Shown: in pieces, positions 30,937-56,671 of the stretch
How positions within the stretch are numbered: the stretch's first letter is position 1
Layout: each line of letters opens with the position of its first letter
Source: Aphrocallistes beatrix
Lineage: Eukaryota > Porifera > Hexactinellida > Sceptrulophora > Aphrocallistidae
Assembly: GCA_963281255.1 (NCBI GenBank)
Contig: OY725494.1
Coordinates: 4,787,934 to 4,851,933, forward strand
Length of the DNA: 64,000 nucleotides
Direction of reading: 5' to 3'
Notes under the pieces: generated by a model
The model's database searches: none
What the model saw: only the letters and a program-made list of their open reading frames with translations
What the model was told of the DNA's origin: nothing
Translations under genes and position numbers: made by a program

Positions 30937-31890
30937 ATGACAGATTTCGACCGTGTCATCACACAAATCATAGACATATTCAGTCAGCTGATCGAACAGC
31001 TGAATGACAAGAGAGACGAACTCCTGGAAGAGGTCTTCCAAATTCGGGATGACTTCGACAGCAAGGAACTCACTCGTGTTAAGTCCTTGGAAAATATAGA
31101 AAAAGTTGAACTGCAAATCCAAGAGGTATCTCTGAAGGAGAACTTTAACAGATCTCTACACGAACAAGTAGATCTCATGTACCAACAGGGCAAGCAGAAG
31201 AAGTCTGTTCCTTCCACACACCCTGACCTCTCCTTCAACTGCCCCACCCTCTTCCTCCTCCAGTCCCAGATCTCCCAGTTCGGAGAGGTACAACAGAACT
31301 CCACACAGGATCAGAAAAACATTTTCATCCATGAAGGATATTCTGCACAAGATTCTGAAACGATAACGAATGGGGCGCAAAAAATTCCAAAGTTTAAAGC
31401 TCCTGACTCTCAATTGACGAATCAAAAAGGATACAAAAACAAAAGTAGAGAATCAGCTGAATGCCTAACTACTAAAAACATATTTTCTAAATCCACCCAC
31501 TCGAATCCAGGAGAACTTAACTTCTATATTTCAAGTGATGACTTCGATCAGAATAACGCAAGAAATACTTCTTGCCTGAAATCACCTCGCTCTCAACCTG
31601 AGCTAAATCTGGAAGAATATTTCATCATCTCACTCCGGGATTTCAAGCAAAACTGCTCAGTTACGAGGGACGGCATTGCTGAATCATTCGCTAGGCCTGT
31701 CCATCCAATACGGAACTTAGATTCAAAACCAATGTCCGAATTTCCCTTTGGAGAACAGGTGCAAACTGTCACAGCTGATGATAAAGGAAAAATTCCTCAT
31801 CCGGATAGGAATGTGGAATATGTTGAGAAAAGGAAAAATAGAGCGGCGAAGAAGGAACTGAGAAGTTCACCCAACACACAAACCATGTAA
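30937..31890 (+). CDS. Coiled-coil protein, paralog of NHL gene, NHL lost (317 aa)
   Basis: Residues 1-115 align along their length with the coiled-coil domain of the gene at 26989: both have FDRV, a helix ending in QL, the phrase LHEQ followed by YQQ, a proline-rich turn, LSF-x-CPTL and SQFGE. After FGEV the similarity ends. The remaining 200 residues are polar and probably disordered, with no NHL blades and no domain I recognise; the C-terminus is basic (EKRKNRAAKKELRSS). It may act as a dimerising or decoy partner of its paralogs through the shared helix, which is inference. The stop codon is followed after 18 bases by a hAT-like insertion. Confidence 0.75.
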   Translation: MTDFDRVITQIIDIFSQLIEQLNDKRDELLEEVFQIRDDFDSKELTRVKSLENIEKVELQIQEVSLKENFNRSLHEQVDLMYQQGKQKKSVPSTHPDLSFNCPTLFLLQSQISQFGEVQQNSTQDQKNIFIHEGYSAQDSETITNGAQKIPKFKAPDSQLTNQKGYKNKSRESAECLTTKNIFSKSTHSNPGELNFYISSDDFDQNNARNTSCLKSPRSQPELNLEEYFIISLRDFKQNCSVTRDGIAESFARPVHPIRNLDSKPMSEFPFGEQVQTVTADDKGKIPHPDRNVEYVEKRKNRAAKKELRSSPNTQTM

Positions 31891-32261: not shown

Positions 32262-33263
32262 TCAGAATAGATTCTCATATTCTGGCACATTCTCCTTCTT
32301 GTGGGGTACTCTAGCACCAGTACGCACAGATTCATACACTGGCATTTCCTCGCTTAGGTTCTCATAAGGGTGTCCTACGAGTGTGGAGTCTCTATCCTCC
32401 CTGACACTGCTACTAGGAAGTATTACAGTTGTGATTTTTTGATCCCAGACAGATACTAACTTTTTAACTCCTATTGAGGGTTCGGGTGAGCTTTCACTCC
32501 CTGAATCCTGAGGAGGTTCGGGTTGAGGGAGACCTACCCTTGTACTAATGTCCCTATCCTTGCGGGATAAGATAGTTGTATGTGACATGAAATTCGTTTT
32601 TTCGGAAAAATCTCTTTTATCTGCTACTCGCTGATCATTAGAAGGATCCTTATTTGTAGGCAAGGGCTTTGGGCATTTTTATTTTTCTTTCTGGGAACGC
32701 TGTTCTTGTTTCCTGCGTTTAATCTCTTCTGCAGTGACACAGGCATAGGGCGGTTTATACTCGGTTTCAGGTGTTTGGGTAATTTCTCTTTGTTCTTTCT
32801 GAGCTGGCACGCGCATTAGTGGAAGATTCTCCACTACCTCTCCGAACTGGGAGATCCGTAGCCGAAGATGAGAGAAATCGGAACAGCTGAAGGAGAGGTT
32901 AGGAAGCTGGGTAGGGGTAGAGAGCTGGTGTTTGGCTTTTTGGTACACTAGTGCTGCTTCCTTGTGAATGGGTAGGTTCATGTTAACCTTCAGACTCAAT
33001 CGCCCAAGATGAAGTTGTGTTTTCTCCAGTTCATCTAAGGCGGCGATGCGAGTAGCTTCTTTTTCGTGGAAGTCCTCGTTAAGCTGAAGAACTTTTCTTA
33101 AGAGATAACCTTTCCTAGTCATCAGCTGATCGATCAACTCACGGAATGTTTCCTCGATTTGTACAGCGACGCGATCGAAATGCGACATCGTATTGGAATT
33201 TTCTTGGTTGATTTGTTCCATTTCCGGATAATTTGGTTCTCTATATGGACTATTTCCTGCCAT
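32262..33263 (-). pseudogene. Third coiled-coil paralog with ITAM-like tail, in-frame stop
   Basis: From ATG 33263 the frame runs to a TAA at 32679-32681 and, if that stop is ignored, continues in the same frame to 32262. The first 150 residues match the shared coiled-coil domain (FDRVAVQIEETFRELIDQL, then ISQFGEVVE). The part after the stop is polar and ends with YENL, six residues, YESV, and then EYENLF. The pair YENL-x6-YESV has the spacing of an immunoreceptor tyrosine-based activation motif. Three readings are possible: a recent nonsense mutation, stop-codon read-through, or a splice that skips the stop. The ORFs on both sides are otherwise undamaged. A GTG further upstream (33293) is not a likely start because the TATA box lies there. 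An NHL region is absent. Confidence 0.6.
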
Positions 33264-33296
33264 TTTGAATTTTGATAATCCAACAAATGGCACAGT

Positions 33297-35839: not shown

Positions 35840-36390
35840 ATCCTTACTATTAAAACTCGATTATTGTTTGTTTATATATATATATATATATCTCTGTAAC
35901 GAATTGATTGAAGAAACTGCTCGGCACAGAAAGCTGATTTTTGGCATGTGGGAGTCTTTTGGCTATGGCTCCAGTAAGTTCTGAGCTCAGACCAAAATGT
36001 CGACTCATCATTTAATTATGACGCCATTGTCACATTTTTAAAAGTTAAGCAACACATTTATTCGGGCATAACTCAGCCATTTTAGGAGATAGAAGGCTGA
36101 AATTTTAATATAATCTGTATCCTAACACGTCTCACATATGATGCAACTATCATCAAAAAATGATGACTCATCACTTTGCTATGATATCATCATTACTGAT
36201 CAAAATTTTAAAAATTGACAAATTTGGTGTTTTTTCGAGTGATATCGATTTTAAAACTAAGATGGACATATTTAGAGATGATATATCCCGTTTAATTAAC
36301 CAATGTCACCTCCAGGCGACCGAAGGGAGCCTCCGGTGAACACGAAGTGTCTGCCAGCCGCGCAGCGCAAGCAAGCGAAGCGCGCTTGTT
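35840..36390 (+). mobile_element. Helitron-like non-autonomous element, copy 2
   Basis: Same start, body and GC-rich end as the copy at 33978, with scattered differences throughout and a longer TA tract near the start. Confidence 0.5.
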
Positions 36391-36560: not shown

Positions 36561-36634
36561 GAATTTCAAGGAGTGAACAGACGGACGGACGTCGCACGCC
36601 GATCAAAGCACTCCTATACTAGGAGCTGCACTAG

Positions 36635-36745
36635 AAAGTGATAAGACCACCAGCCACTTCTACTGCCATGTGCTATGGCGTGACAGGACAGCTGCGATCT
36701 CCCTGTGCCAAGAGGTTTACAATGACCTGAAAATAGAATTGTGTA
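36635..36745 (+). pseudogene. Possible PTB-domain exon fragment
   Basis: After a ctag acceptor the frame reads SDKTTSHFYCHVLWRDRTAA and then ISLCQEVYNDLKIEL. The pattern CHV, hydrophobic residues and a final amphipathic helix resembles the last strand and helix of phosphotyrosine-binding (PTB) domains such as those of the Fe65 family. No preceding PTB exons are visible, the next 3 kb upstream is transposon sequence, and the promoter of the PX-BAR gene lies just downstream. It could be a stranded exon or a chance match. Confidence 0.3.
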
Positions 36746-36949: not shown

Positions 36950-39900
36950 ATGGAGCATTCACACTTGGAACAAACAATATTACAGGTTAGTAAGGTGTCA
37001 ATATTATATTGTTATTCTCTTCTTCTATAGTAAACACTGAAATTTGTTGTTATTGACAAATAAAGTTGTTTCAATGTTTCATGCAAACGAATTGTTTGTT
37101 GGGTATCATTCATGATTCCGTCTATATCAACCTCTGAGGAGCTATGATCGACGATTTCGTATCAGATCAGGTCTCGAGATTTGATAGAAGCGTCTGATAT
37201 TTTGTGACAAATCGTGAGATTTGGGGTCTGTCGTTAGATCGTGACATTTTACCCGAAATCGTGTAACACAGGACGAGATCTTGAGAGTAGAGAGGCCTGA
37301 GAGATGGTTTCATCGCCTAATACTCAATAGACTATTTTCACGTCATAATACCATACATGCCAACTGTCCCGCTTTTTCATTCTTCTATTGAGATAATTTT
37401 CACGAGTCCCGTTTTTACATGAAGTTTCTCCATTATGTCCCACTTTTATGGATTGCATGTATACTACGTTTCTATTGAGTCCCGCCAATTCAACGCCTCA
37501 TCCCGCCCTTACCATTGCTCAAGTTGGCATGGATGTAATACGTATTCGAGTGTAAGATGGTTTATGTGTAAATTGATTTTGTTCTATATTAGGCGATCTA
37601 TGTCAGTGTGACTCTTTGTCTAAAATTGCACACTAAAATGTGTTATAAATGTACAATTATGTGTTTATTGAATTTCCGTATGGAAACTGCACATGGCAGA
37701 TGGAATGTCATATAAAGTGAGTTTATATTTGTAGCTGCAAGAAGAGAAGAGACAGCTGTTTGAAGAGTTGGAGCAATGTCTGAGTGAGAAGAGAGGAGTA
37801 CAAAACAGGTTCGTTGCTACTCATTTATGTTATTTGGTAAAATTGTATTGTACTCGACCAAAGCATAGAATCTCAGTGGGGTGGAAACCTATGCCCATGA
37901 TCAGTCCAACAAGTCCATTTCTATCCGTCCCCCTCTTCGAGTAACAACTTGAGTGTCCAGTGAAGTGGAGAAATTCTGAAGAATACAGTCGACTCCGCTT
38001 AATAGGGTCACTGTTTAACCGGGTCAACCGCTTAATTGGCCCAATTTGGCAGGACCGGAATAGCTCTCACATATAGAAGCTAATACAAAATATTTTCGGT
38101 TAATAGGGCTCTCCGCTTAATCGGGACAAAATATCTTCTGACCGATGTGACCCTATTAAGCGGAGTCGACTGTATTAATTTTTGCTTTTCGAAGGATTAA
38201 CACTAGTTCTCAATATAGATCTGTACTAGTAGCATTAAAACATTTCCTCCTTTACTCCCTGAAAATATCTCCTCCTTTACCCCCTATCTGAGGTCCATAA
38301 ATTAATCATTAGAAACGATTTCTAAACAGCGGAATTCAGAAAATTTCTACGTATGTGTCTCTTCATTATCTGATGCTTAGCTCCACTTATCATCATAGTC
38401 AATACATTGTATTTTAGTAATACAACCCCCATCTACTATCAATGATGACTTCATTATTGCATTACGAGATAGCATCATGGTGGAATTGATTCCATAGCCT
38501 TATTATCAGAATGTCCTGTGTTACCATCACACCCCGGGGAGCATTGGTAGGTTGGTATTCTGAAATATTGGCTACGGTGGTCTTTTAGAATTATGCTTAT
38601 ATACCACGATGTGACGATGTTATAACATGTTGACTGAACTGATTCAATCAGGATTAGTTCAGTAACGTCGTCAGAGTGAAATGAGCAGTATTGTGCCTCC
38701 AAACCACTAATTCAGTTATGCAATGTGTCCTTTTTGTTTGTGTCGTGGTTGCTAATGATATTCAGTGTCACTCAGAAGAAGTAAGGATCATATACCAAAT
38801 TATAACTTTTCCTCATAATTACATGCACAAAGAGGTTTGGAAGTAGAAACTCGTGGGGACACTTGGGACTCTAGTCTAGTATTGGCTTATTCGGGGTCAG
38901 CTATACGGTACGGTAGCTTAGAGGTATTTCCCGAGGGAAGATTGGATCTGTTTATTGAACAGAGACTCTGTGGATACTGGATATGCAATTTCTTATTGAT
39001 TTGTTCGATTTAAAAAAAGAATATTTCTTCCAGCGAACTTGTTAGTGGATAGGACTTCAAATAAGTATATTATACCCCGTTCTACCGTTTAGGAGTTTCA
39101 TTTCTATAACGTATTTGACTTAGCTATTCAACTCAGTGTGTTATCTGTTCCTATGTCTTAGTGAATATCCTATCAATTCAATACTTTAGAACCTTTCATT
39201 TCGTCCAACAATAGAGAATGGCTTCAAAGTATATTATGAAGTAATTATATCACGGATCATCTGCTGTCAACGGAACAATTATAACGTTATCAAATTCTGT
39301 AAGAAAACACTATAGCTTCTCATTGTAGAGATACCTCCACTTAACACTGATAAGATGCGAGTAAAAACATACAAGATTTGAGGCCGATTCTTCTATTGTT
39401 TGATTTACCAATTAAATGCTCTAGACTCGACGTAACGCCACACCAAGGATAGCTATAAATATCCCACTTGCTTATTTGGCGCCCAAAGGTAGAATTGAAG
39501 AGGATACTTAACCCTAGTTGGACTTGGAATGTTGAAGTGAAAGTGAAAGTTAATTGAAAGTGAAAATGAAAGTGGGAATTTTCTATTTATACCTTTGACC
39601 CCAAGTCCAAGTAGGGTTAACTATTAAAAGTTAATAATTATACCCTCCGATTTTTCTATTTATAGTAATTACCCCAAAAGTATATGGTTCCCCGTTAAAA
39701 ATAGCTTAAACCGGAAATTACGCAACACATTCCTGTGGCAACGAATGGTATAACTTATTTAACGGCCAAAACTACTGTTGAAGTATCCCACTACGATATT
39801 TATACCCTTAATGAAGTATTAAGTATAGTAGGGAAGGTTTATTGAAAACAATTGCTAACAGAATCAGGTCTGGAAGAGGTCTCCTACGGAAGGGAGGGGG

Positions 39901-42900
39901 TCCAATCCCGACTTGTAGGAGGGCAGGGAGAGGTCTGGGAGGTTAGCTATGTGTGAAACCAGCTCCTCGTGGACTATGGATACGTGGTCTAACCGCGACT
40001 GTTGTTCAAGCAGTCTGCTTTCCGCTGTGTGGAGGTGCTGTTTCTGTGAAGTGAGGAATGCTATTAACATCTCTTGCAGCTGTTGCTTCTCTTCCAACTC
40101 CTGCAACACGGTTACATTACAACCAGCCCATAGGGTAACTAGGGAGTTTTAGGTGGCACTCCCCACTCTGTTTAGTGCGTGCCAGTGTCGATCAGCTATA
40201 ACACAGAAGTGTACGGCACGCACATCCTATTAAGTAATATGCATCTGACCCTAGTTACGCCAAGTAACCAGAGGTATTTTGCAGTTTCTTATTAAAGAAA
40301 ATGCAAAATAACTCTGGTTAAGGTCTTATACGTAGGGACTGTGAATTGGGTTCATCATGTGCAATGCTGAGTGTCTAGTGCTTCCCAAACTGGGGTCCAT
40401 GGACCCTTTAGTGGTCCACAGAATTCGAAATTTTGTATTACGGTTAATAGGAGGGGGTCCACAGAATATAGGAATAATTACTATAAAGCTGGTTTAGATA
40501 CTCATTTGAATCAAGGTTAGATAAGCTGAGTAAACCTCTCGTAAACACTCTACGAATGACAAATAAAATCTGAATAGATTATCTGGTTTTGCTTAAATTT
40601 GTCGATAAGCAAATTCAAATGGTTGAAATTGCTTGTAAACTTGGTTTACTTGGTCAGTTCACATCTGGAGATAATGTAAATATCTCAGTCAGGTTAGCTG
40701 TTACATTCTACCTAAACTGAACTTTGAAATTGTATGGATATACAAGTGTGCTGAGATCATGAAGTCAGACACGTGGCATAACACAGCATATCTAGTTTGA
40801 CTTCCATGCACGTTATGCTTGTGTATGATATGAACCAATCATGATCTAATTACAAGTAAGTGCATCTCTGTGGAGGTTGTATTTTAATCTGAATAGTTTG
40901 GAAGAAAAGCGTAGTGAGGGGGACATTATTTATTTCCAGTAATTTTGTTCACAGCAAATTAATGCAAATTAAAAGTTAACAACCCACTCAGTTCCTTTTG
41001 AATATGGCTCATGTAGACTGTTGAATATTCTCATTATTTTGCTAGAAGGACTCTATACACATACGAGTAGTTGCTTAGATACGTAGTTATTGTACAAAAA
41101 TGTACATGCACAACTTGTTGTTATAAATAAAACACGCGTTTCTTATGAACTGACCATCTGGTCCTAATACCACAGTTGACATATAATTTGTCTTTTTAGC
41201 AATACAGTCGACTCTGCTTAATAGGGTCACATCGGTCAGAGGTCATTTTGCCCGATTAGAACTCTATTAATCGAAAATATTTTGTATTAGCTTCTATGTG
41301 TGAGAGCTATTCCGGTCCTGCCAAAAGTGGCCCGATTAAGTGGTTGACCCAATTAAGCGGAGTCGACTGCATCTCGTATTAAAATATGTTTCGAACCATG
41401 GATGTTCATAGTAGTGAGTGTTTCCTGGGAGGAATAATAGTTTACAGTCCTAGTATGTCTAGTAACCTTCTGTAGCTGTTCCGTGTATGTCTTTATGAGT
41501 CTGGAAGTGTGCTCTATGCGCTGTAGCAAAGGGTCTATCTCGTGTTTCTCTGAAATCTCTGCTAGAGCAGTCACGTCTTGAAACACGGACACTCTGTTAC
41601 TGATCTCCTGCTGGGTTCTAGATAGAGTGGTAGCACTAGCAGCACTGCTTATATATACACATTGTATCGTCGAGTAGTAGCAGGGCAATTATTATTTTTA
41701 GCTCCCTTTACCAGCCAATGAATCTTCTATATTTCAGAAATGAGGTTTTTCAATGAAAATAACCACTTGAGTGATTGGATAATTGGTAAGAGGGAAGAAT
41801 TTACTGAAAAACTTATCCTATGGGGTAGCAAAGAAATAGCACCCTCTTTGTGGGGGAGGGGGGAGAATATCGAATTCTGTATTAACAGCTTCTACTGGAT
41901 ATACACTGTCTATGATCATACCAACAGTAGGTATATTCAAATACTCAGGAGACAGAAATGTAGAAAATCCAGAGATATTCCATATAAACAAAGGCTGTGT
42001 ATTTGCTCATGGCATGGTATGTACCAGTGGCATTCAAACTGGGGTACGCCGGGTATCAATATTTTATATCTCAACATATTACAAATAATAGTGTGAGAAC
42101 TGTTGGGGTTTACAGAAATTTCAAAAACAGTCTGGGGGGTATGCTTGGAAACAAGAAAGACCACTGGTATGTAGTTACTCACGTGACGTCACCAGACGGT
42201 TGATGCTCGGAGGAGTGCAGAGCTGAGATAAGCTCGGAATAGTCGGGCGCCTCTCTGGTGGGTTTGAGAGTCTCCAGTCCGGACGCGGTCTCCGTGTCCC
42301 TCGAGGGGGGTGGGTCTCTCGCGAGTTTGGCGTACTGCGCGTGGAGCGAGTGGAACCGACTGATGCTCTCACCGCTGAAGCAGCTGCGCTCCTCCCAGAT
42401 GGACACCAGGCGTTGAATGCCTATACCAGTTTATTATTAGGCTTGATTCTATATTTAGTTACGCAATCCTACCAAGGTGTTTAGCATTTAAGAAGGAACT
42501 TTTCTTTGACATGTCATAGTTGAGGATTGTAGGAGTATGATACATAGAAATAGCAGACGGATGGAGATAGTGTGTGTGACTTTTGAATGAGATTACTCAG
42601 TGAATACTTGCCAACTGTCCCGTTTTTGGCGGGACGTCCCGCTTTTTTCACTCTCATATTGACCTAATGTTTACGAGTGTCCCGATTTTACTTAAAATTT
42701 CCCCATTATGTCCCGCTTTTTTAATTCTATGCATAGTACATTTCTATTGCGTCCCGCTAAATTCAACGCTGAGTCCCGCTCTTATCATGGCTCAGGTCGG
42801 CATGTAGTCAGTGGACTCACCCTGAGTTAGTTGGAAGTCTTCCTCCTTGTAAGCTATCTGCAATGCTTTGTGCATTACTTTCCCGAACTCCCGACACAGC

Positions 42901-45900
42901 TCCAAGCCTCTCTTCTTCGAGTTCTGAACGATGTCGTTGCTCAGGAAGAGAAGGGTCAGTTTTCTACCGGGACCAGCTTTGCACAGCTCCTTCAGCCAGA
43001 TCTCCACGGCGGTACGGGCGTGTTTCCGGTGCTTGACCACCCAGAATGAGAGGGTCTGTATGCTGTGCTGTGAGTTCGTGAGCTCTTTCAGACGATGGTC
43101 CAGAGCCGAACTGGAGAAACGTTCATGCGCCGCCATCCTAGCTGCACTGGACTGGAATCAATGTAGATATGCTAGCCTAACTGTGAGAATAACGGATTTG
43201 GCTAATTTTGATTTGACAGCATTTCTCATCAATACTACTCGTGAAATGTTTTAGATTTTAGAGCTGTGGATTGGCAATAAATGACAGAATGGAATGAAAG
43301 TAATAGTGCTTCAATTTCTACAGACACGCATATAATTCTAATAATCGCTACACTATTATCTGCGTACATGCGAATATACAATTTCTCCACGAAAAGATAC
43401 TCCAAATGATTATCCGTAGAGACTCTATTAGAAGATATTAATTAAAATAAATTTACAAATTGTACAACTCGTTTTATTTCGTAGTGATATTATGTCCTAA
43501 AATTGTGATGGAGAAAGGAACCAAATTTCTAACTTGAATAACTAATCTGATGTTTGTAGCTATGAAGAAGCGCTAACTCAGCTGAGCGAGAATGAAGGAC
43601 TTATCTCACAGCTCAGCCAAGAACTTACCTTGGTGAGTTATACACTGAATACAAGAGTGGTTGTATTACAATGCAGCTACAGTCGATTGCTGTAAAACCT
43701 TGGATACCCGATTCAATATAGTTAATTTGAAGCATACAGATCATGAATCGAATTTGGTATAATGGAAGATACGCATGTACACTAAGCGAACAAAAGTATT
43801 TCAACACTTGATTCTTTCCCATACAAATAATGCTAAATGGGTCTATTCATGAAGAGGTTACTTCTAAACGGTATGGGATACAGCTAATCGGATTCCAGAT
43901 TCGAATAATACGCATTCGAATTAGTCAAATTTGAATTTTTCTAATTAATCATTCATTCCTAACTTTTTGTAATTATCAATCAGTGTCACCTTATGCCACA
44001 TACACCCATTTTGACCACTATACATGATGGCAATGAATTACCTATGGTGACTCAGGCTGATAAGATTGTTCATTGAGTTGAGTAATTTATTAAATATGTT
44101 CAACTATGACAAATTCGAATGTGTAGATTTCGAATCTGAAATCAGATTTTTAGTATCTCTTAGAATTTGAACGTATTGCCCTTCATGAAAAAAATCCGAT
44201 TTAGTATTATTTGTATGGGAAAGAATCAAGTGTACAAATACTGTCCGCTTAGTGTATACATGTCTGGTCTATTGAACCGTTTGAGTTATACGCATTTGAA
44301 GAAATGTTCTGTTTGTAGACGAAGTCACAGCTTGGGGAGACTACTCGAGAACTGCTGGCTATCAGGGAAGTGATAGGAGATTCTCACGAGCTGGAGGCTA
44401 TACCAGAAGAGACCATTGTTAGTTACCTGAACACCTTTTAAATATGTGAATTATAACCAATCAGTTTGTCCTGCTTAAAATGAAGAAAATATGATCGTTT
44501 TAATGTTGTCTATGAACTATAATTAGAAGTTAGATTCTAACTTAATTATATTCTATTTAGGACGAGGCCGATGAAGTAGTGGACAGCTCTTCTTTCTCTC
44601 TGGACAAGGTAAGATGGATTCACATTCTCACATACACTAACTGATTCTTTATTCAGAATCACCCTGCATAGCATTCTAATACAATGAACTAATTTAGATG
44701 TACTTTATCATCAATGATAGAATCACTCGAGTGTTTCAGACAATTATACTATAACACAATCAAAAATTTTAAAAATGTATGATGGGAATATATTTGACCA
44801 ATTAGAATGCGTTGTTGTGCAGAGTACAGAATTAGCACATGGTGCTATGGTAATTAATCTCTGTAAAGAAGCTTGATTGTTCATCGAAACAGATTGAATG
44901 AAGTCTGATTCAACACTGTTGTTCCTAATCTCGGTGTACAGCATGCATAGCTATCTGTGTACGTAAATAATGCACCAAACATATGTCCAGTTTAACAAGG
45001 ATTTACAAGAAACTGTAAAAAGTACAGATTATATTTGGTAATTAACTCAGCCAGTAATCAGTCAAACTTTCCTATCGTGAGTGAAAATATTCATCAGGAG
45101 TTTTAGGAGGTTTTATATCTTGAGAGTCACCAGGATTTTATTCATTCAAGTAAATGAGTAGGAATTCTGTCCAAATAATTAATACATGACACACGCTAAT
45201 AAAAAAAAATAATTGTCCTACATAGCTTGAATTTTTTCAGATTGACGCACCAATCCTTCGATGAATTGGCTTCACCCAAACATGTCCATTTTCTCAGTAC
45301 ATGCAGCAGTTATCTAGATTGAATAAGTAATTGAAAATCTGAGTACATTCATTGTTGTCTTGTAAAGTTTCTGATAACAAATCCGCTTAGTTCACCATGA
45401 GAGTACAAGTATGAAATACCTATGACTCATCTTGTTGTGAACCAGAGCCGTACAAATACTGAATTCGTAGTAGAGTTCAATTTTTTAATAAATAAATAGA
45501 AATTATAAAAGTTATCATTTTTGGTACTTAATCTGAACACAAATTGTCTGGTTTCACACAACACAGGAGACATTGAACCGAACTCGTGAATGATCAGAAA
45601 TTTCGTGTGACGATGATCACGAACTGAGAAGCTTTTTTGGTTGCAGATATTAGAATTAACTTTTAAAAATATGCTATCTAAATATTTCTTCAGTCCTTCG
45701 TAACAACAGAAAAAGAATTAGTATTTTCCGTTTGCTTGTTATCATTACTCGAACCATGGATATTTAGCTACCATTTCAAACGATTCTAATTCTAACTTTA
45801 TTTATTTTTAGTTTATAAGTAAACAAATGAACAAACAACAATTCTCAATGATTGTCTTAATAATATTTTCTAAATTAAAATATACGAAATAATGGCATTA

Positions 45901-48900
45901 TTATTGTAAATAAAATTAAACATTTTTTATTTTAGTTAACTTTACAAGATGAGTGTCTAACAACGATAGCCTGTAAGCTGTGTGGAGAAACAGTCCAGTA
46001 AGTAACCCAAACAAATTTGTTTACAAACACAAAACTGTTTGTTTATATATGTTTGTTTATATATGTTTGTTTATATATGTTTATTTATATATGTTTATTT
46101 ATATATGTTTGTTTATATATGTTTGTTTATATATGTTTATTTATATATGTTTGTTTATATATGTTTGTTTATATATGTTTATTTATATATGTTTGTTTAT
46201 ATATGTTTATTTATATATGTTTATTTATATATGTTTGTTTATATATGTTTGTTTATATATATTTGTTGTTTAGATTTGATGATTTAAACCATCACTCCAA
46301 AAGATGTTCCACTTCCTCACCACTTCGAGATGCAGACATCTCTAAATGGTGAGATATAGCATTCCAATCTTGCATTCCTATTGTCAAGGAGTTTGAAGGT
46401 GTTTACGCTATAGGGTAGAGGATATAATGAAACAGGACAACTCTCTCCAGATCACTCTAACCAGGTCCAACCCCTTATCAGGAGAAACTGCCCCCTTCAA
46501 AGTCATCTCTAAGGTCAGAGACTAATACTATATTTACAATCGAATTCTTTAATTGGGACAAAATTCCAGTAACGGAATCTTCTCAGCATAGTAATGCCCT
46601 TAATTGCATCAGTTAATTGGGATATAATCGAGTTAAAATGACAGGAATAAAGTGTCCCCATTAATGGAGTCACATAGAGTATGGTATATACCCTTGGCCA
46701 TCTAACTGTATTCTTTTTCCCTCACTCAAACTTATTCTGTTAAACCAATGTAACTTTCACAATACATTTAAACTCATTTAATTGGCTATCGTACAGAGAG
46801 GGTCTTATCATAGCATTTGATGACTGTGCATTCATAACTTTATTAAAATGTTAATAATACTTTTAACGATTGTTTATTCTAAGCAAACCTGATTATAATG
46901 CCATTCCTCACTATAACCTTGCCGTAATCACATTAATGTTGATGTGTGCAGTTTTGCACTCCATTATGATATCTTATTCAGAGATTCACTAAGATGGTCA
47001 GGGTTGTATCATGTTAAAGTGTGTGGGTTAACATAACACGGCAGTTAGATCATGTCTGTAGAAACTGGACACTTCCAACGTTATCAGAGATGATACTTTG
47101 TTGATGGCGTTGCATTAATAGAATTCTCAGCATTTTACTGAGCAATGTTAGACCCGTATTGCCAACATAATCAATGGTGTTTTGAAGGAGTGAAATTGGA
47201 ATTTCAAATACAGTAGTGGATGCTGATGAATAGTATTGTTTTATCCGCGGGCTTTTCAAATACTTTTGAAGAAATCCGTATCGAGGATATGTTTAAGATA
47301 ACTTAATGCTCTTACACCTGCACCCACTCTACATACATGCCAACTTGAGTCATGATAAAGCGGGACGCAGCGTTGAATTTCGCGGGACATGGCGGGACGC
47401 AATAGAAAAGTATTCTATATCGAATAAAAAAAAGCGGGATATAATGGGGAAATTTCATGTACAAGCGGGACACTCGTTAAAATTAGCTCAATAGAAGAGT
47501 GAAAAAAGACAGTTGGCAAGTATAACTGTATCAATCCTGTTTACAGATGAGGCTACAGCAGAATCAGCATAAGTGTATGGAGGTGTACAGGTCTCACGGA
47601 GATTTCTATTGGCTACACGCAGCTATGCAGGTAATGTATTATGCACATAAAATTGTCGTTTCTATTTAATTGTGAAAGTTCACTTGAAGACTTTGGATAG
47701 CATGTAGTTAGGGACTTCTAAAACTTGAGATTAAAGATCTGTGTTTTATCTCCGTTTAGCTCGCATCTCCTGAACGCATCGTACCTCCACTACAACACCA
47801 GATATCTCTATTCGGTTAGTTGAATTTGAAATGTTCTATTTATAGAATATTGCGGCTTTGCAATGCAAAGTGGAAATTTCATGGAAAGTTATTTCATTAA
47901 ATTTGTATTAAAAATCCTTAATAAATATTTCTAGAAACAATAACTGAATTCCAGAGGTTTCTAAACAGAATAGCATCACACAATGTAAGTTCTGCTACTA
48001 TACTAATAATAACATATTTGAGCCTACAATTCTAACTCACATTCCTTTTCTCCCTATAGCATCTAAGGACTCATCCTCTTGTCATGACATTCCTAACAGG
48101 AACTAACGAGGTAGTTACATACGTATATCATATTCTATATATTGCATTAGTTCCTGAGAAAATCAACACTTATAATGAGCTCTTCAAACTTTGTGTAACA
48201 CATTCGAGAGTAGAGGTATACCAAGTTGTGTATGAAACTTTCAGAAGTGTTTTGTAACATTTGAATGGGTCCGAGTGGTCTGGTTTTATTAAAAGAGCCC
48301 TTATGAAATAGGAGAACCAGAAATATAATTTAGGATAGCTTCTGAAATGAAAAATTATGAAATTGAGTTACTATTTGAAACACAAAGAGCTTTGCCATTG
48401 AAATTTAAAGCAATACAAATCCCTTATTAATACACCGTCTCCTCAGTAGTACGAGATATCCCGTTTCCCATTCAATCCGTGAGTGTTGGTTTGTGTGTAG
48501 AGTATCCGGCTAGCTCGCACTCAGTATAGACAGAGCAGATCTGAAGCTTTGCAGACTGAGTACAGACCCCAGACCAGGGATGGAGAACAGGAGTCATCTC
48601 TAGCTGACACTAAGGTGATTCTATTTTTAGACTGATACTTATTATAGAACTCTCAAACTGTTGAAACAAGTGCGAATTCAACTTTCATTCAGCTCTGTTT
48701 GTTCGATCGCCAATATATTATGCTTATTATTATATGCTATTTTTAGAACTACTTGACATCATTGGAGGGCAATCTTCTGGGACTGCACAACTACTTCCAA
48801 GAGGCACGGAAGATTGACTATGGTATTCACAGCGATGTTATTATTATTATTGTTGTTGTTGTTGTTGTTGTTGTTGATTAGACAGGTGTTTATGGGTATT

Positions 48901-51900
48901 TGTTGTAGGAGGTCCAGGCAAATGGTTGGAAGCTCTCAGTCTTAACGAACCCAGAAACACGTACACTAAGGTAACACCACTCTATAAGCTAGTCTAAAAT
49001 TAGAATATCACCTGAATAGCATACAGTTAGTCGATCTCTTAAGAACGGATTCTTGCTAATAACTTCCAACATTTCTCTATGCAACCAAAATATTGTTTTT
49101 TACATAATTTTACGGTCACTGTGTGTGTGCTATGTCATTCATACTGTTGTTCTATCTCGTGTTTACTCTCTGACTCTTGCAAGTACTGACTTCACGGAGA
49201 ATGTAGGAAGTTATTGAAGGATTCTCTCAGAAGTGTTATGACGTACTTTAATATGCGTTATTTAGATGATTCAATATACTTCCATGTGTAAGCAATAGTG
49301 TTTTTTATACATATCTATTCTTAATGTAGACTGTGATCAGTGATATATCCCGGATCTTCCAAACAATAAGCAACAAACAGGTAATAAATACAAATATGTA
49401 TAATCATATTATTCTATTCTTAAATTTAAGCTTAGTCTGAATACAGTCGACTCCGCTTAATAGGGCCACATCGGTCAGAGGACATTTTGCCCCGATTAAG
49501 CGGAGAACCCTATTAACCGATGTGTGAGAGCTATTCCGGCCCTGCCAAAAGTGACCCTATTAAGCGGAGTCGACTGTATTTGTTTATATGAGCTAACCTC
49601 TGGAGTCAAATCTGTTTACAAATAATTCCTTTAAAGATAAATTCACACAATATTAATCTATTTTTAACACATTCGGTCCGTGTATGTAGGCAGAAGAGAG
49701 CATCGAAGATTGGACTCTGATTCAGAATCTACAGAGCACCATTCAGTACATAACCTCTGCGAGGGTGAGTGGCAAATTTGAATACAATTATGCACTCTAA
49801 CATATCTATAAATAGAATATTTAATAATATAATTTTATCAAAGTTTATGCTACGGCCCTAGAGACGACTTTTACCATTGGCATGTGAACTGTTTTAGTTC
49901 CAAGCATTCAACCAATCAGCTACACTGCTTGAAGTACTATTTTAGTCGAGAGTGAAATTATATTTGGCGGCGAAACGTTTTTCCGAAATTTGTTGTATAC
50001 ACCCAATCTTACCAAATTGAAAAGAGGACACTGATATTATTCTTAGATTCATGTAATAAACAAATTTAAATGAGGCAACATATCAATACAAACAAATATG
50101 CACTGTATTAGCTAGATAATGCTAGCACTGTATAATATAGTAGAAATGTAAACATGCACATACACACATACAAAGAGGTAAACAATGATGTTTCATCTTT
50201 CAAGAACGTGAAACACCAAAAAGATACAGAAACATTACAAACAAACAAAAACACAAGTTCCAGAAATTATTCACAATGCGATTTCCTGCACTAGATTTCC
50301 CAATGCAGACTTCTCCACTAGTAGTATCTCCATTGCTATCCATATTGGTGTCTCAATTAAGATTATAATATTTGAAGTGGATTCAATTTAGCTTTAAAAT
50401 TACTCGATTTTCACTCTATAATATGTAAATAGAATAATACAAGAATACATAATCTCAAAAGAGAGGTTATAATCTCAGAATCCAGATTAGAATGGAATTC
50501 AATTCATTGGTTGTTCAGGGTATCAGCTAGCTTAGCAGATGAAATAATATTCAATGCTCAATCAGCAAGTAATTGCACAGCAATGAATTCACTAATAAAA
50601 GTATATACAAGAAACCATCTGAATGTAAGAGCGTGTGTATATTAATGAATCGTTTTATTAATAGATTATATCAGATCCATTCAATGCTATTTCGTATTAA
50701 TTTTAACTTTTCTAAGGTAATATTTGAGGTTACATCATATCCATAGAGTGTGGAATGCATTTCGTTGATAGACACACCAACATTACATTAATTAATATTT
50801 TAAGCAGTTGAATCTATCACTCAAATTGAGCTTAAAAATCTAAAAATTGTCACTCAGTCCATAAAATACCTAAACTTTTCCAATTGTTCCAGAAGTCTGT
50901 ACGGACACACATATAAAATTGAGATTTGTATACGTATATAACGTATGTATAAATATAATCATGTTTCTAAATATGTTTAGGGATTGCTAGAGAGAATAGA
51001 ACAGACAATGGAGAAGTATCTATTCTGGGATGAAGAAGTGCAAAACTGTGAGAATATAAACAATCAACACCTCTCAACACAGCATTCCAACTACTCAACA
51101 AGTAACCAAGGCAACTCAACACCTGTCCATTTGAGTCCGAGTGACTCTAACGACGACTTGAGTGTTTTTGATGACTCAGGAATGTCTGAATCTGGCGGTA
51201 GTTCCAACCCCAGCGTACAGTACACGTCTGCACACTACAGCACTGCTAGCATCAGTCAGAAGTGGGCAGAGGTGAATTGCTTGTGCATATCGTGATAAAA
51301 TTTAATGACTTAAATTATTGACAAACCCTGGTCACTATACACCTGCAATAGTCTGGATCAACTAATTAAACCTAATAACTTCTCCTCCAATCAGGATCGA
51401 GCTTTTTTATATATTGTTGCATAATTCTGACCAATCAAATTTGCGTAGCGAAATTTCAAAATTTCATTTCTCCCATTATTATATCTCATTTATACTCGTC
51501 TCACTTCTTCCGTATCCTACAATTCGCTCGCAATACAGAATCATCAAATAGTATAATGATGACGTAATCACGTAGAAATTAGTTAGAGAACTTGTGTAAA
51601 CTTATCTTTCCATCCACATGCATTACTGGCGTGTATTTCTAGGCTAACGGCCACTGCTCAAATGCCCGAGAAGAACTAGAGACAATGTGTAAGAGCCTCG
51701 CTACAGAGCTTGCGTACTTTGATTACCTCAAAGAGAAAGACATCAGGAATATCCTCATTGACTACGTCACTACGCAACATGAACATATGCAGAAGGTAGA
51801 TATCATCAATCTTTTTAAATTAGAATTTCACACACGAAATATTGTTAATTTTGACTCTTTCAAAATAGCTTCAAAGCAAATGGTACGCAATGAAACTTCT

Positions 51901-51970
51901 GCTGGAAACCCCCATACAACCGGAAAACAGATCAATTGAGTTCATCTATGAAGACCAGGAGGCCTGCTAA
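36950..51970 (+). CDS. Sorting nexin with coiled coil, C2HC finger, PX and BAR (576 aa), 20 exons
   Basis: Exons: 36950-36985, 37735-37808, 43560-43632, 44319-44417, 44561-44608, 45936-45997, 46274-46348, 46414-46513, 47547-47630, 47760-47814, 47935-47984, 48060-48110, 48501-48614, 48747-48822, 48909-48970, 49330-49380, 49690-49764, 50981-51271, 51643-51795, 51869-51970. All have GT..AG borders and all phases match, giving one 577-codon frame. Residues 1-85 are a leucine-rich coiled coil. C123-x2-C126-x10-H137-x4-C142 is a small zinc finger like that in some AGC kinases. Residues 160-269 form a PX domain (ITLTRSNPLSGE, VYRSHGDFYWLHAAM, IVPPL, LRTHP), which binds phosphoinositides. The rest is helical and ends as in SNX-BAR proteins, with a 70-residue polar insert at about 418-488. 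It should act in endosomal sorting. Which SNX subgroup it belongs to is not clear. The exon 2 to exon 3 join spans the RPRD1 gene and is the least certain. Confidence 0.8.
37356..37531. mobile_element. gcgggac-family MITE
   Basis: Ends catgccaactgtccc and, inverted, caagttggcatg; several gtcccgc motifs inside. It lies in intron 1 of the PX-BAR gene. Confidence 0.75.
37986..38172. mobile_element. pogo/Tigger-like MITE, family P1
   Basis: 187 bases with intact inverted ends and TA flanks, in intron 2 of the PX-BAR gene. Confidence 0.85.
39513..39619. repeat. Short inverted repeat with gaaagtga run
   Basis: The arms accctagttggacttgg and ccaagtccaagtagggtt flank a run of gtgaaagtgaaag units. 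Confidence 0.6.
39864..43136 (-). CDS. RPRD1: RPRD1-type CTD-interacting protein, four exons (322 aa)
   Basis: Exons 42821-43136, 42183-42420, 41467-41644 and 39864-40100 join with matching phases (1, 2, 0) into 323 codons. Residues 1-130 are a CID domain: the start FSSSALDHRLKELTNSQHSI, then SFWVVKHRKHARTAVEIWL and LLFLSNDIVQNSKKRG, continuing across the first splice into IQRLVSIWEERSCF. The rest is a coiled coil that closes with DPLPSVGDLFQT, the conserved end of RPRD1A/B. Human RPRD1A and RPRD1B have 312 and 326 residues. The CID binds the phosphorylated C-terminal domain of RNA polymerase II, and the coiled coil dimerises. In humans the complex recruits the RPAP2 Ser5 phosphatase. The protein cannot be assigned to A or B because invertebrates usually have one gene. 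The whole gene lies antisense in intron 2 of the PX-BAR gene. Exon 3 could alternatively begin three bases earlier. Confidence 0.92.
40376..40470. repeat. hAT-like left end
   Basis: The text gtgcttcccaaactggggtc followed by catggacc resembles the ends of hAT elements. The other end was not found. Confidence 0.4.
41205..41369. mobile_element. pogo/Tigger-like MITE, family P1
   Basis: 165 bases. The left flank is TA and the right flank has changed to CA. It lies in intron 3 of RPRD1, almost touching exon 3. Confidence 0.8.
42025..42166. mobile_element. hAT-like MITE in RPRD1 intron 2
   Basis: It begins cagtggcattcaaactgggg and ends gaccactg. The flanks gtatgtac and gtatgtag are a 7-of-8 target duplication. 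It lies 17 bases from the exon 2 donor of RPRD1. Confidence 0.7.
42606..42804. mobile_element. gcgggac-family MITE in RPRD1 intron 1
   Basis: It starts cttgccaactgtcccg, ends gtcggcatg and is full of gtcccgc motifs. Copies are at 25612, 37356, 47336 and a fragment at 63372. Confidence 0.75.
43780..44254. mobile_element. Tc1-like MITE, family T1
   Basis: It begins cactaagcgaacaaaagtat and ends with the inverse (atactgtccgcttagtg), with TA flanks. It is 475 bases long and lies in intron 3 of the PX-BAR gene. Confidence 0.8.
46040..46265. repeat. 12-base minisatellite in PX-BAR intron
   Basis: About 19 tandem units of tatatatgtttg or tatatatgttta, filling most of the 276-base intron 6. All frames read through it, giving artificial CLYMFVYI-type ORFs that are not genes. 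Confidence 0.9.
47336..47521. mobile_element. gcgggac-family MITE in PX-BAR intron 8
   Basis: Ends catgccaacttgagt and, inverted, acagttggcaagta; 186 bases. It ends only 25 bases before exon 9. Confidence 0.75.
48838..48878. repeat. (TTA)n/(TTG)n microsatellite
   Basis: Run of tta units passing into ttg units, in the 86-base intron between PX-BAR exons 14 and 15. Confidence 0.8.
49444..49576. mobile_element. pogo/Tigger-like MITE, family P1, short form
   Basis: 133 bases with both ends intact. It lacks part of the interior found in the 188-base copies. It lies in PX-BAR intron 16. Confidence 0.8.
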
Positions 51971-52944: not shown

Positions 52945-54288
52945 CAGGGTGTTTCATAAGTCGTGGCCAAAAATTTTTTTATATCAATAGTTGTTTTTCT
53001 AATGGACCATGAGCATTACTATTTCCTATTCTGCTGCTTTACTGCGGTATTACAATCACTCTATTTTCAACCATTATTTCGTTTATATTATTTCCTGTTA
53101 CTTTTTTTTTTGATAATTTGTACTTTTTGTTCATTTTTTAAAAATGAATGTGTCTGACTACGGGTTAGTCATGCGTTCTAAGGCAATCGGGATGATAGAA
53201 TCAGGAGTACCTAAAAAAGAGGTAGCCAAGAGGCTTAATGTTGGATATCGTTCGGTTCGAAGATGGTCACAATCCAATAATTCGGGAGTTTCACTGGAAA
53301 CCAAGGGGCGGTCTGGACGTCCGCCGATTTTAGACCGTGTGAGCAAAATTGTTATTGCTAAATCTATCGGCAAACGACTCCAGTCAACGAGGAAAATCTC
53401 GAAGAAACTGCGAAGAAAAGGCTACACTATTTCTCCAACTACTGTTTATAGGCATTTGAAGGACCATATCGGTGCGAGGTCGTACAAACGTCCAAAAAGG
53501 CCACGGATTACCGACAGGATCAAAGAAAAACGACTTTCTTTCGCCCTAGCCCATCAGCATTGGACTGTTGATGATTGGAAAAAGGTTTTGTGGTCGGATG
53601 AGTCCCTCTTTGAGTTGTTTGCATCCCCGAATCCACAAAATGACCGCGTTTGGGACAAAACCAGCGACAGATTAGAGCCTGTCTTCAAAGTGAAATTTCC
53701 AGCGAAGGTCATGGTATGGGGTATGATGTCCCATTCTGCTGTTTCGGAACTGCACATAGTCCCTCAAAAGCAAACTGTAAATGGTGCTTACTATCGGGAT
53801 CATATTTTAAAGAGGACCTGTGTTGATGCAATTCGAAGAAAGCGTAAAACAGGTGGTATTTGTGAGAGGGCTATGCTACAGAACATGTCAAATTTTCTGT
53901 TCATGCAAGACGGTGCACCAGCTCACACTGCTAATTTGACTCAAGCATGGTGTTCAAAGAACTTCCCAAGATTTTGGAAGAAAGGTGAATGGCCAGGTAA
54001 TTCTCCCGACCTAAATCCTATTGAAAATATATGGGCAATTCTTTCAGATAGGCTAGATGAAATGGGACAAATATGCAGAACTGAAGATCTAATTTCAAGA
54101 CTCAAAATAGCATGGTCCAGTATCGATCCGAAAATTCTGAACAATTTAGTTGAAGGAATGCCTAAGCGAATTGCGCAGGTTATAGAGAGTAATGGTGATT
54201 ATATTCATAAATAATACAATCTATTCGTGCACAATTTTCGTTTATTTTCTTTGATTTTGGTAGTGGCCACGACTTATGAAACACCCTG
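52945..54288 (+). mobile_element. Complete Tc1/mariner-like transposon, DD37E
   Basis: The first 25 bases, starting cagggtgtttcataagtcgt, are repeated exactly in inverted form at the end, and both flanks are TA. The 1344-base element encodes one uninterrupted transposase. Identical ends and an intact frame suggest recent insertion and possible activity. Confidence 0.9.
53144..54214 (+). CDS. Tc1/mariner-like transposase, DD37E (356 aa)
   Basis: Residues 1-110 hold two helix-turn-helix motifs: KRLNVGYRSVRRW and KKLRRKGYTISPTTVYRHL, with the basic GRSGRPP linker between them, as in the paired-like DNA-binding region of Tc1 proteins. The catalytic triad is D152 (WSDES), D256 (QDGAPAH) and E294 (SPDLNPIENIW), with 37 residues between D256 and E294, so it is a DD37E type rather than the DD34E of Tc1 or DD34D of mariner. 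No stop or frameshift is present. The enzyme binds the element ends and cuts and pastes it into TA sites. An AT-rich leader precedes the ATG. Confidence 0.93.
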   Translation: MNVSDYGLVMRSKAIGMIESGVPKKEVAKRLNVGYRSVRRWSQSNNSGVSLETKGRSGRPPILDRVSKIVIAKSIGKRLQSTRKISKKLRRKGYTISPTTVYRHLKDHIGARSYKRPKRPRITDRIKEKRLSFALAHQHWTVDDWKKVLWSDESLFELFASPNPQNDRVWDKTSDRLEPVFKVKFPAKVMVWGMMSHSAVSELHIVPQKQTVNGAYYRDHILKRTCVDAIRRKRKTGGICERAMLQNMSNFLFMQDGAPAHTANLTQAWCSKNFPRFWKKGEWPGNSPDLNPIENIWAILSDRLDEMGQICRTEDLISRLKIAWSSIDPKILNNLVEGMPKRIAQVIESNGDYIHK

Positions 54289-55090: not shown

Positions 55091-56671
55091 CTAGAAATCG
55101 CGTACGAATATAATGATGAAGAAGATAATGCCTAGTAACATACAGCTACAATACCTTGCGATGATAAATAGCTTCGAATTACATACATTTCCATAACATA
55201 TGAAACGTGATATAACTGAGTGGTTCTTAACTAAATTATCATTATCTACTTGGCTTATATCTCCTTCAGTATTTTTTCTGACTAGGGCTGCAAACTTTTC
55301 CCAACGTTGACAGAAGACGATTAAGAGACCAATTACAGTGCTTAGGAACATTAGTATTGTCATGACCATGAGCAAACTCAACGCTTTCCACTCCACATAA
55401 TGTGCGACGATGATTGATATGACGAAACTAACAACCAGTCTTATTATGAACTTCTGAATCGCATCGATCCTTTGTTGACAACACGCATTCATCACACCTT
55501 GTTCAAGTAAAAAAACGTCCCCTAAAAGAACAATGGCTAGAATTTTCATACCAAAGGATAGATTAGAAGCTAACATTGCATCTGTTGTGAACAGTTTACT
55601 GAATGGTTGACTTGTCATGCACACAAAACTAGAAATGAGAATCATTACTATCAAGCAATAAATCAAAGAAAATATCGCAACTCTTCTAGCTTTATTTGGT
55701 TCATTCGCACCAAGGATATGGCCAACACGAACAGTAATCGCACTACTGTAACCATAAGCAAAAAGACAGAAAGCAAACCAAATTGAATAGAGGATGGAAT
55801 AAATAGCTAACTGTGTCTCACTTCGAGCTATAATCCCCAATATTATCATAGGAGATATGCCTGTTTGGAAAATCGATGCAAAACTCTGTATTGTGGTGGA
55901 TAATGCGTACTGCATAGTGTGATACCATTCTCCAATCATTTCTACAGTCCAATCGACATTGGTTAATATGTGTGTGTTTGTGAATCGAATGTGTGCGTAG
56001 ATCAACAAAGCTATGAGGTACGTGCTGATGCAGTAACCAGCTGCTGCTCCAGCTAAACCTGTGTCGAAATGGAATATGAAAATGTACTGTAAGATCCCAT
56101 TGAGAGCGCAACCTAAGAGGAGATAGAGCAGAGGAGGCCAAACTACCCCGTTAGCTTGTAGATATCCGATCGCTGCTTTTTGGTACAGATAGGGCGGTAG
56201 AACGAAACAGTAGACCGTTGCATACCTTCCTACCTGGTAGGCTAGCTGCCCGTCTTGTGTTACGAGGTAGACGATAGGACGTGCACTTATGTAGAGAGCA
56301 CACAGTGGGAAGATTGTGAGAGCTGACATGAAGAGAATTCGATAGAAATACAATCCTACCATCCTGTACTGTTTAGCTCCGAATGCTTGGGAACAGAGAA
56401 TATTGGCATAAGCTGCTATTCCTAATCCCAACGGGTACGAAGTGGCGTTTGAAAACATCTGTGCTACGTAGAGTGCACTCAGCATTAGAGTGACTTCACT
56501 TCCTGAACTCCTCCCGATAAATACATTGCTCAACTTCATTTGTATTCCTTCTGTGAAGTATGAAATAGCTGTAGGGAACGCGAGGAAAGTGAGTATTTTA
56601 GCTTCTTGAAACATCCAACAATATCGTTCCAATTTCATTTTTGCAAATAGAATGTTCATTTCATTTTTCAT
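55091..56671 (-). CDS. MATE family transporter, copy A (526 aa), single exon
   Basis: The protein is highly hydrophobic with about 12 transmembrane segments and shows MATE family wording: TFLAFPTAISYFTEGIQ in the first helix, LGIAAYANILCSQAFGAKQY at about 85-105, and GYLQANGVVW near 170, with a second-half equivalent around VRVGHILGANEPNKAR. MATE proteins (SLC47 in animals) export organic cations and drugs in exchange for protons. The length is typical of eukaryotic members. The coding region has no intron, unlike most neighbours. It points away from its twin at 58957, the two starts being 2.3 kb apart. Confidence 0.92.
   Translation of the reverse strand: MKNEMNILFAKMKLERYCWMFQEAKILTFLAFPTAISYFTEGIQMKLSNVFIGRSSGSEVTLMLSALYVAQMFSNATSYPLGLGIAAYANILCSQAFGAKQYRMVGLYFYRILFMSALTIFPLCALYISARPIVYLVTQDGQLAYQVGRYATVYCFVLPPYLYQKAAIGYLQANGVVWPPLLYLLLGCALNGILQYIFIFHFDTGLAGAAAGYCISTYLIALLIYAHIRFTNTHILTNVDWTVEMIGEWYHTMQYALSTTIQSFASIFQTGISPMIILGIIARSETQLAIYSILYSIWFAFCLFAYGYSSAITVRVGHILGANEPNKARRVAIFSLIYCLIVMILISSFVCMTSQPFSKLFTTDAMLASNLSFGMKILAIVLLGDVFLLEQGVMNACCQQRIDAIQKFIIRLVVSFVISIIVAHYVEWKALSLLMVMTILMFLSTVIGLLIVFCQRWEKFAALVRKNTEGDISQVDNDNLVKNHSVISRFICYGNVCNSKLFIIARYCSCMLLGIIFFIIIFVRDF

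Follow-up and report, generated by a model that had tools for sequence, protein, structure and literature searches.

A putative single-copy SNX-BAR sorting nexin of the sponge Aphrocallistes beatrix with a coiled coil, a probable C2HC finger and a PX domain that seems blind to phosphatidylinositol 3-phosphate

The window analysed here is a stretch of 64,000 nucleotides from the hexactinellid sponge Aphrocallistes beatrix (contig OY725494.1), which carries on its forward strand, between positions 36950 and 51970, a plausible gene of 20 exons for a predicted sorting nexin. The protein sequence supports a sorting nexin of the PX-BAR type with an N-terminal coiled coil, and a C2HC zinc finger is probably situated between the coil and the PX domain. 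As judged from its residues, the PX domain is without the four that bind phosphatidylinositol 3-phosphate (PtdIns3P), a point that was missed in the original prediction of this gene. The explanation that we favour, with a confidence somewhat above even, is that its product is a divergent SNX-BAR subunit from a single-copy gene. In an endosomal coat it would be the half that is blind to PtdIns3P and reads a partner, as SNX5/6/32 are beside SNX1/2 and yeast Vrl1 is beside Vin1. Its BAR region would dimerise, most likely with a lipid-binding SNX-BAR, for example the protein of SNX1/2 type that this genome also encodes. This partner would supply the endosomal targeting, and the coil and the finger would add contacts to a partner protein. 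Counted for this explanation were the coil statistic (0/2000 shuffles), the rarity of the finger join, the PX match (2.7e-7), the Vps5-type end (8.6e-5) and the single reading frame.

Gene model and coiled coil

The 20 exons had been proposed to keep one reading frame, and this was confirmed when the join was rebuilt: all 19 introns are of the GT-AG type, and the product has 576 residues followed by a stop codon ending at 51970. The exons and a repeat array found among them are listed here, with the number of settings in which an independent decoder (see below) recovered some of them.

36950-36985, forward strand: exon 1, start codon, MEHSHLEQTILQ; donor score 9.4; decoder 0/14
37735-37808, forward strand: exon 2, coiled coil; decoder 14/14
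43560-43632, forward strand: exon 3, coiled coil; decoder 14/14
44319-44417, forward strand: exon 4, coiled coil; decoder 14/14
44561-44608, forward strand: exon 5, acidic linker; decoder 14/14
45936-45997, forward strand: exon 6, contributing C123 and C126 (first finger half); decoder 0/14, synonym-only version 1/7
46036-46267, forward strand: tandem array of a 14-base-pair (bp) unit, TGTTTGTTTATATA, repeated 16.6 times and separating the finger halves within intron 6
46274-46348, forward strand: exon 7 (75 nt), contributing H138 and C142 (second finger half); decoder 0/14, synonym-only version 1/7
46414-46513, forward strand: exon 8, start of the PX domain; acceptor score 6.0
47547-47630, 47760-47814, 47935-47984 and 48060-48110, forward strand: exons 9-12, remainder of the PX domain
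48501-48614, 48747-48822, 48909-48970, 49330-49380 and 49690-49764, forward strand: exons 13-17, with the linker and the early BAR-like region
50981-51271, forward strand: exon 18, BAR-like helix and a polar insert of ca 75 residues (by eye)
51643-51795, forward strand: exon 19, putative BAR end, with the residues that match Vps5 (482-551)
51869-51970, forward strand: exon 20, C-terminus and stop codon

Of 15 candidate first exons that fit the phase of exon 2, exon 1 has the best donor. Intron 6, which splits the finger, is mostly taken up by the 14-bp array. Exon 7 has the same phase on both sides, and it could therefore be skipped without a frame shift, so that an isoform with half a finger is possible. 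Exon 8 also contains an inner acceptor (first base 46436), which scores 1.3 compared to 6.0 for the outer one and joins exon 5 in frame, dropping the finger.

For residues 1-84, the heptad statistic is 0.625, a value matched by none of 2000 shuffles, and the proposed N-terminal coiled coil is thereby borne out.

The exons were checked with a decoder that combines a codon model, trained on 7090 codons in 13 open frames from other genes of the same genome, with splice models. The latter were trained on exons 8-19 for the donors and on exons 9-20 for the acceptors, together with the three introns of an antisense gene that is nested in intron 2, so that the sites in the first part of the gene (donors in exons 1-7, acceptors in exons 2-8) were new to them. 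Decoding was done at 14 settings, and at seven for a version that scores synonymous codon choice only. In both, the antisense gene was masked, because unmasked decoding gave many false exons over it. Exact recovery in 14/14 settings was obtained for exons 2, 3, 4, 5, 9, 13, 14, 15, 17, 18, 19 and 20, while exons 12 and 16 were recovered in 12/14 and exons 10 and 11 in 8/14. Exon 8 was found exactly in a single setting, and in the other 13 in a shortened form, 46436-46513. Unmasked decoding recovered 17 of the 20 exons in 4/4 settings, without exons 1, 6 and 7, and the donors of exons 6 and 7 were used. As alternative first exons the decoder proposed 36303-36387 and 36626-36714, which lie partly in sequence that appears, by eye, to be repeated in the window. 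Since exons 2-5 are joined to the PX-BAR exons in every setting, the link of the coil to PX-BAR in one gene is supported.

PX domain

The PX domain of the original prediction was readily recognised by Pfam, with a match to PF00787 above the cut-off (E=2.7e-7 for the whole protein, 1.2e-9 for the PX part alone). The nearest chains in the PDB are a designed CISK PX domain (9.9e-6) and SNX7 (0.0023), the latter being the nearest natural SNX chain. According to PMC6449406, the human PX domains that bind PtdIns3P all have four residues, at least one of which is absent from the non-binders. The four residues of the PtdIns3P-binding groups (II, IV) in that source, namely an Arg-Tyr pair, the Lys of PxxPxK and an Arg in alpha2, are not found in the sponge domain.

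To compare these positions, an alignment was made of the domain, three PDB segments and 14 PX places from the genome, where 26 are known in all; the other 12 were fragments or not chosen. At the site of the RRY motif (exons 9-12) stands YRSHGDF. The first residue of the Arg-Tyr pair is thus Ser, where 13 of the 14 other genome domains have Arg (L015 also has Ser), and the second is His, where all 14 have Tyr or Phe. The loop VPPLQHQ has no Lys where the PxxPxK motif has one; this residue was read by motif because gaps make the K92 column unreliable. The alpha2 helix is present and its Arg is replaced by Ile, not deleted, at a position where only 7/14 of the other genome domains have Arg. The loop after VPPL is the shortest among all aligned domains and segments, and the length to the end of alpha2 in the second alignment block is 27 residues, with 33 for the next shortest (counted by hand). 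Intron 10 adjoins this shortened loop. Read-through of intron 10, which would lengthen the loop, was considered and rejected, as it meets a stop codon immediately.

A noncanonical lipid site, consisting of a His or Tyr in helix alpha1 and basic residues, is also described in PMC6449406. This site may be partly retained here, because a His follows YWL, although few basic residues come after it (by eye).

BAR region

Of the BAR-like helices that were originally proposed, the end is the part that stands up to profile search. The Vps5 profile (PF09325) is matched with E=9.7e-4 by the whole protein and with E=8.6e-5 by residues 270-576, both below the cut-off, and the earlier part of the region, including exons 13-17, has no Pfam profile match. 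The membrane bending that was originally proposed would hang on this weak BAR match.

Zinc finger

The four proposed ligands of the finger, C123, C126, H138 and C142, are present in the product, split over exons 6 and 7. The spacing, however, is not the C-x2-C-x10-H-x4-C given originally. The match of the finger peptide to zf-C2HC_2 (PF13913) terminates on C142, corresponding to profile position 24/25, and H138 pairs with the partner's His in alignments to Sgf11 (2lo2, E 0.91) and 9y6s_4E (E 0.085), neither of which is significant. Together these set the register to C-x2-C-x11-H-x3-C, which is the zf-C2HC_2 pattern. As this is a general type of spacing, the special likeness to fingers of AGC kinases (the IRE/Rim15 type) that was originally suggested is best taken as putative. 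In Pfam, zf-C2HC_2 and CEP104_ZnF both have E=0.024, below the cut-off, and the zf-C2HC_2 score is 14.8 bits compared to a curated cut-off of 27. The similarity to the zf-C2HC_2 fingers (PF13913; Sgf11, 2lo2) lies thus in the spacing and the aligned ligands, whereas the sub-threshold score, the lack of a significant PDB relative in phmmer searches (best E 0.085) and the unrelated protein context set it apart. A genome-wide zf-C2HC_2 search (39 matches) did not list this intron-split finger.

How often such a finger arises across a join by chance was estimated from open, phase-fitting pairs of pseudo-exons. These were taken from both strands of 123 overlapping intervals, equal in size to the real one and situated in other parts of the window. 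The pattern was C-x2-C-x9-13-H-x2-5-C, and three score thresholds were used, the strictest of which was set knowing the scores of the real site. At the three thresholds the pattern was found in 0/296, 1/1351 and 2/5640 pairs, which are not independent, since the intervals overlap and also contain other genes. In the real interval (exons 5-8), the corresponding numbers are 1/1, 1/4 and 1/7. Taking the evidence together, we consider it quite likely that the finger is real.

UBZ4 fingers of the RAD18 type have the same ligand spacing, and an Asp two residues after the His is needed for binding ubiquitin. Here, this residue is Lys, and no UBZ model was listed for the product by Pfam. Since the Asp is absent, ubiquitin binding by the putative finger is not favoured.

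Relatives in the genome and in collections

The product was searched against the genome (100.5 Mb in 28 contigs, one of which, C8, contains the window). At E<=1 there are 19 matches, of which 18 fall on the gene's own exons and one, elsewhere, is weak (E 0.35). No second copy or paralogue is therefore seen, and the gene would be single-copy. Profile searches at the same threshold gave 26 PX places and 10 Vps5 places. The PX domain of the present gene is not among the former because it is split by introns.

When four of the other frames were submitted to Pfam, L002 and L004 were found to have PX and a strong Vps5 match, L008 to have PX and Vps5 above the cut-off, and L023 to have PX above the cut-off without Vps5. 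By eye, we take L002 and L004 to be SNX1/2, L008 to be SNX4, L003 to be of the SNX9 type and L024 to be SNX5/6. The closest SNX-type locus of the genome is the PX domain of L002 (blastp, 3.6e-4), and the gene is not near any labelled locus. The present gene has 19 introns, whereas L002, L003, L004 and L008, four SNX-type genes of this genome, each consist of one uninterrupted open frame (412-579 codons).

In the viral and prokaryote collections, scanned by short exact peptides, no relative was found; given the content of the collections and the kind of scan, this has no bearing on animals. Two weak matches of the SMC type (E 4.6 and 8.4) came from NCBIfam.

Weighing of the alternatives

A number of results speak against the explanation that we favour. 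The Vps5 match, besides being below the Pfam cut-off, is limited to the final third of the profile (from position 164 to 233, out of 236), and the heterodimerisation and endosomal location would hold by analogy with other SNX-BARs. Furthermore, the coding statistics give the finger exons 6 and 7 no support. Exons 1, 6 and 7 were recovered in 0/14 settings of the masked decoding, and the synonym-only decoder finds exons 6, 7 and 8 in 1/7, namely with the loosest penalty and together with 13 extra exons. The synonymous scores per codon are -0.31 for exon 6 and -0.18 for exon 7, to be compared to a coding expectation of +0.19 and a background of -0.20. It should be added that exon 11, which is within the PX match, likewise scores only -0.17, so that a short exon may be real despite a low score.

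These points bear most directly on the scenario in which the main transcript is fingerless. Exon 5 would here be joined in frame to the inner acceptor of exon 8 at 46436 to give a coil-PX-BAR product, and exons 6-7 would be due to chance or belong to a minor form. This join is the one chosen in 13/14 decoder settings and in the remaining 6/7 of the synonym-only version, the synonymous codon scores of exons 6 and 7 are background-like, and the profile match of the finger has only E 0.024. However, the inner acceptor is much the weaker one (1.3 vs 6.0), and the finger pair is the sole open, phase-fitting pair in the interval at strict thresholds, while such fingers occur elsewhere in only 1/1351 or 2/5640 pairs. 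The Cys and His codons, moreover, depress the score in the full codon model, an effect from which the synonym-only model is free. All in all, we judge a fingerless main transcript to be unlikely.

The various explanations are not mutually exclusive, and one of them is in fact compatible with the divergent SNX-BAR subunit proposed here. The gene could belong to a known family, SNX7/30 or SNX8, as a rapidly evolving orthologue that has gained the coil and the finger in its lineage. That SNX7 is the nearest natural SNX chain to the PX domain (E 0.0023) would fit, and so would the fact that SNX1/2-, SNX4-, SNX9- and SNX5/6-like members were recognised by eye among the 26 PX places, with no SNX7/30 or SNX8. 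On the other hand, a genome search with the PX segment of SNX7 gave six matches, none of which is this gene, and both genome searches take one exon at a time, so that PX domains divided by introns escape them, making the absence of SNX7/30 and SNX8 weak evidence. We regard such an orthologue as a minority possibility. It is, in contrast, very improbable that exons 1-5 (or 1-7) make up a coiled-coil gene of their own, with the sorting nexin beginning downstream. A complete antisense gene does lie within intron 2, and exon 1 is weak, being found by the decoder in 0/14 settings and having a synonymous score of -0.34 per codon, i.e. not above background. However, exons 2-5 were joined to the PX-BAR exons in 14/14 settings, and in the translated model the next methionine after M1 comes only at M161, in exon 8, just before the PX strands. 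Finally, one can speculate that the gene represents a class of SNX-BARs of early-branching animals, not present in vertebrates, in which lipid recognition has been swapped for a coil and a metal finger that read an endosomal partner. We would call this rather unlikely.

Comparison with known sorting nexins

With the SNX-BARs (SNX1/2, SNX5/6/32, SNX4, SNX7/30), the predicted protein shares the order of a PX domain followed by a putative BAR end of the Vps5 type. It differs from them by the N-terminal coil, the probable C2HC finger, the very short PX loop and the polar insert in the BAR region. The loss of the PtdIns3P residues is a likeness to SNX5/6/32, not a sign of orthology. These have a long helical insert in the PX domain, which is not found here, the loop being instead the shortest of the aligned set. 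According to PMC6449406, SNX5, SNX6 and SNX32 bound none of the lipids tested, and it is supposed to be their BAR domains and heterodimers that bring them to endosomes.

Another PX-BAR protein without the PtdIns3P residues is yeast Vrl1 of the VINE complex, whose membrane localisation requires Vin1, as described in PMC9507130. Like the present protein, Vrl1 has extra N-terminal modules. These are, however, VPS9 and ankyrin domains, while here they are a coil and a putative finger; the two proteins were compared by description only (PMC9507130).

About twelve mammalian SNX-BARs are known, three of them with SH3 (PMC7823608, PMC11936996, the available parts). In the available text of PMC11936996, SH3 is the extra domain of these three and the word zinc does not occur, while in that of PMC7823608 the extra domains named for SNX proteins are SH3, RA and RGS, and zinc is mentioned once, for transporters. 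The earlier statement that no known SNX-BAR carries such a finger agrees with both, as far as these texts go. A paper on a sorting nexin with a C2HC finger and a PX domain was not found in the open-licence literature among the matches listed. The coil, the finger and the PtdIns3P-blind PX domain seem to be a combination of known parts. If true, a finger-bearing, PtdIns3P-blind member would represent another targeting route for SNX-BAR coats, and it would fit the view of PX-BAR heterodimers as consisting of a lipid reader and a protein reader.

Neighbouring features

The antisense gene mentioned above is a neighbour that is separate from the sorting nexin and nested in its intron 2:

39864-43136, reverse strand: RPRD1/CREPT-type gene, 4 exons, 323 residues (CID 4.6e-32, CREPT 6.8e-31)

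Downstream of the sorting nexin there is an open frame of 356 residues at 53144-54214 (forward strand), presumably a Tc1/mariner transposase by its look. Further on, at 55091-56671 (reverse strand) and 58957-60537 (forward strand), two frames for multi-pass membrane proteins of 526 residues, near-identical by eye, are arranged in inverted orientation; we take them to be transporters of the MATE type. Upstream, three frames at 26989-28209 (forward), 30937-31890 (forward) and 32679-33293 (reverse) have a coiled coil and a stretch with SQFGE in common. The first of these also has NHL-like repeats, and by eye the three form a local TRIM-like family.

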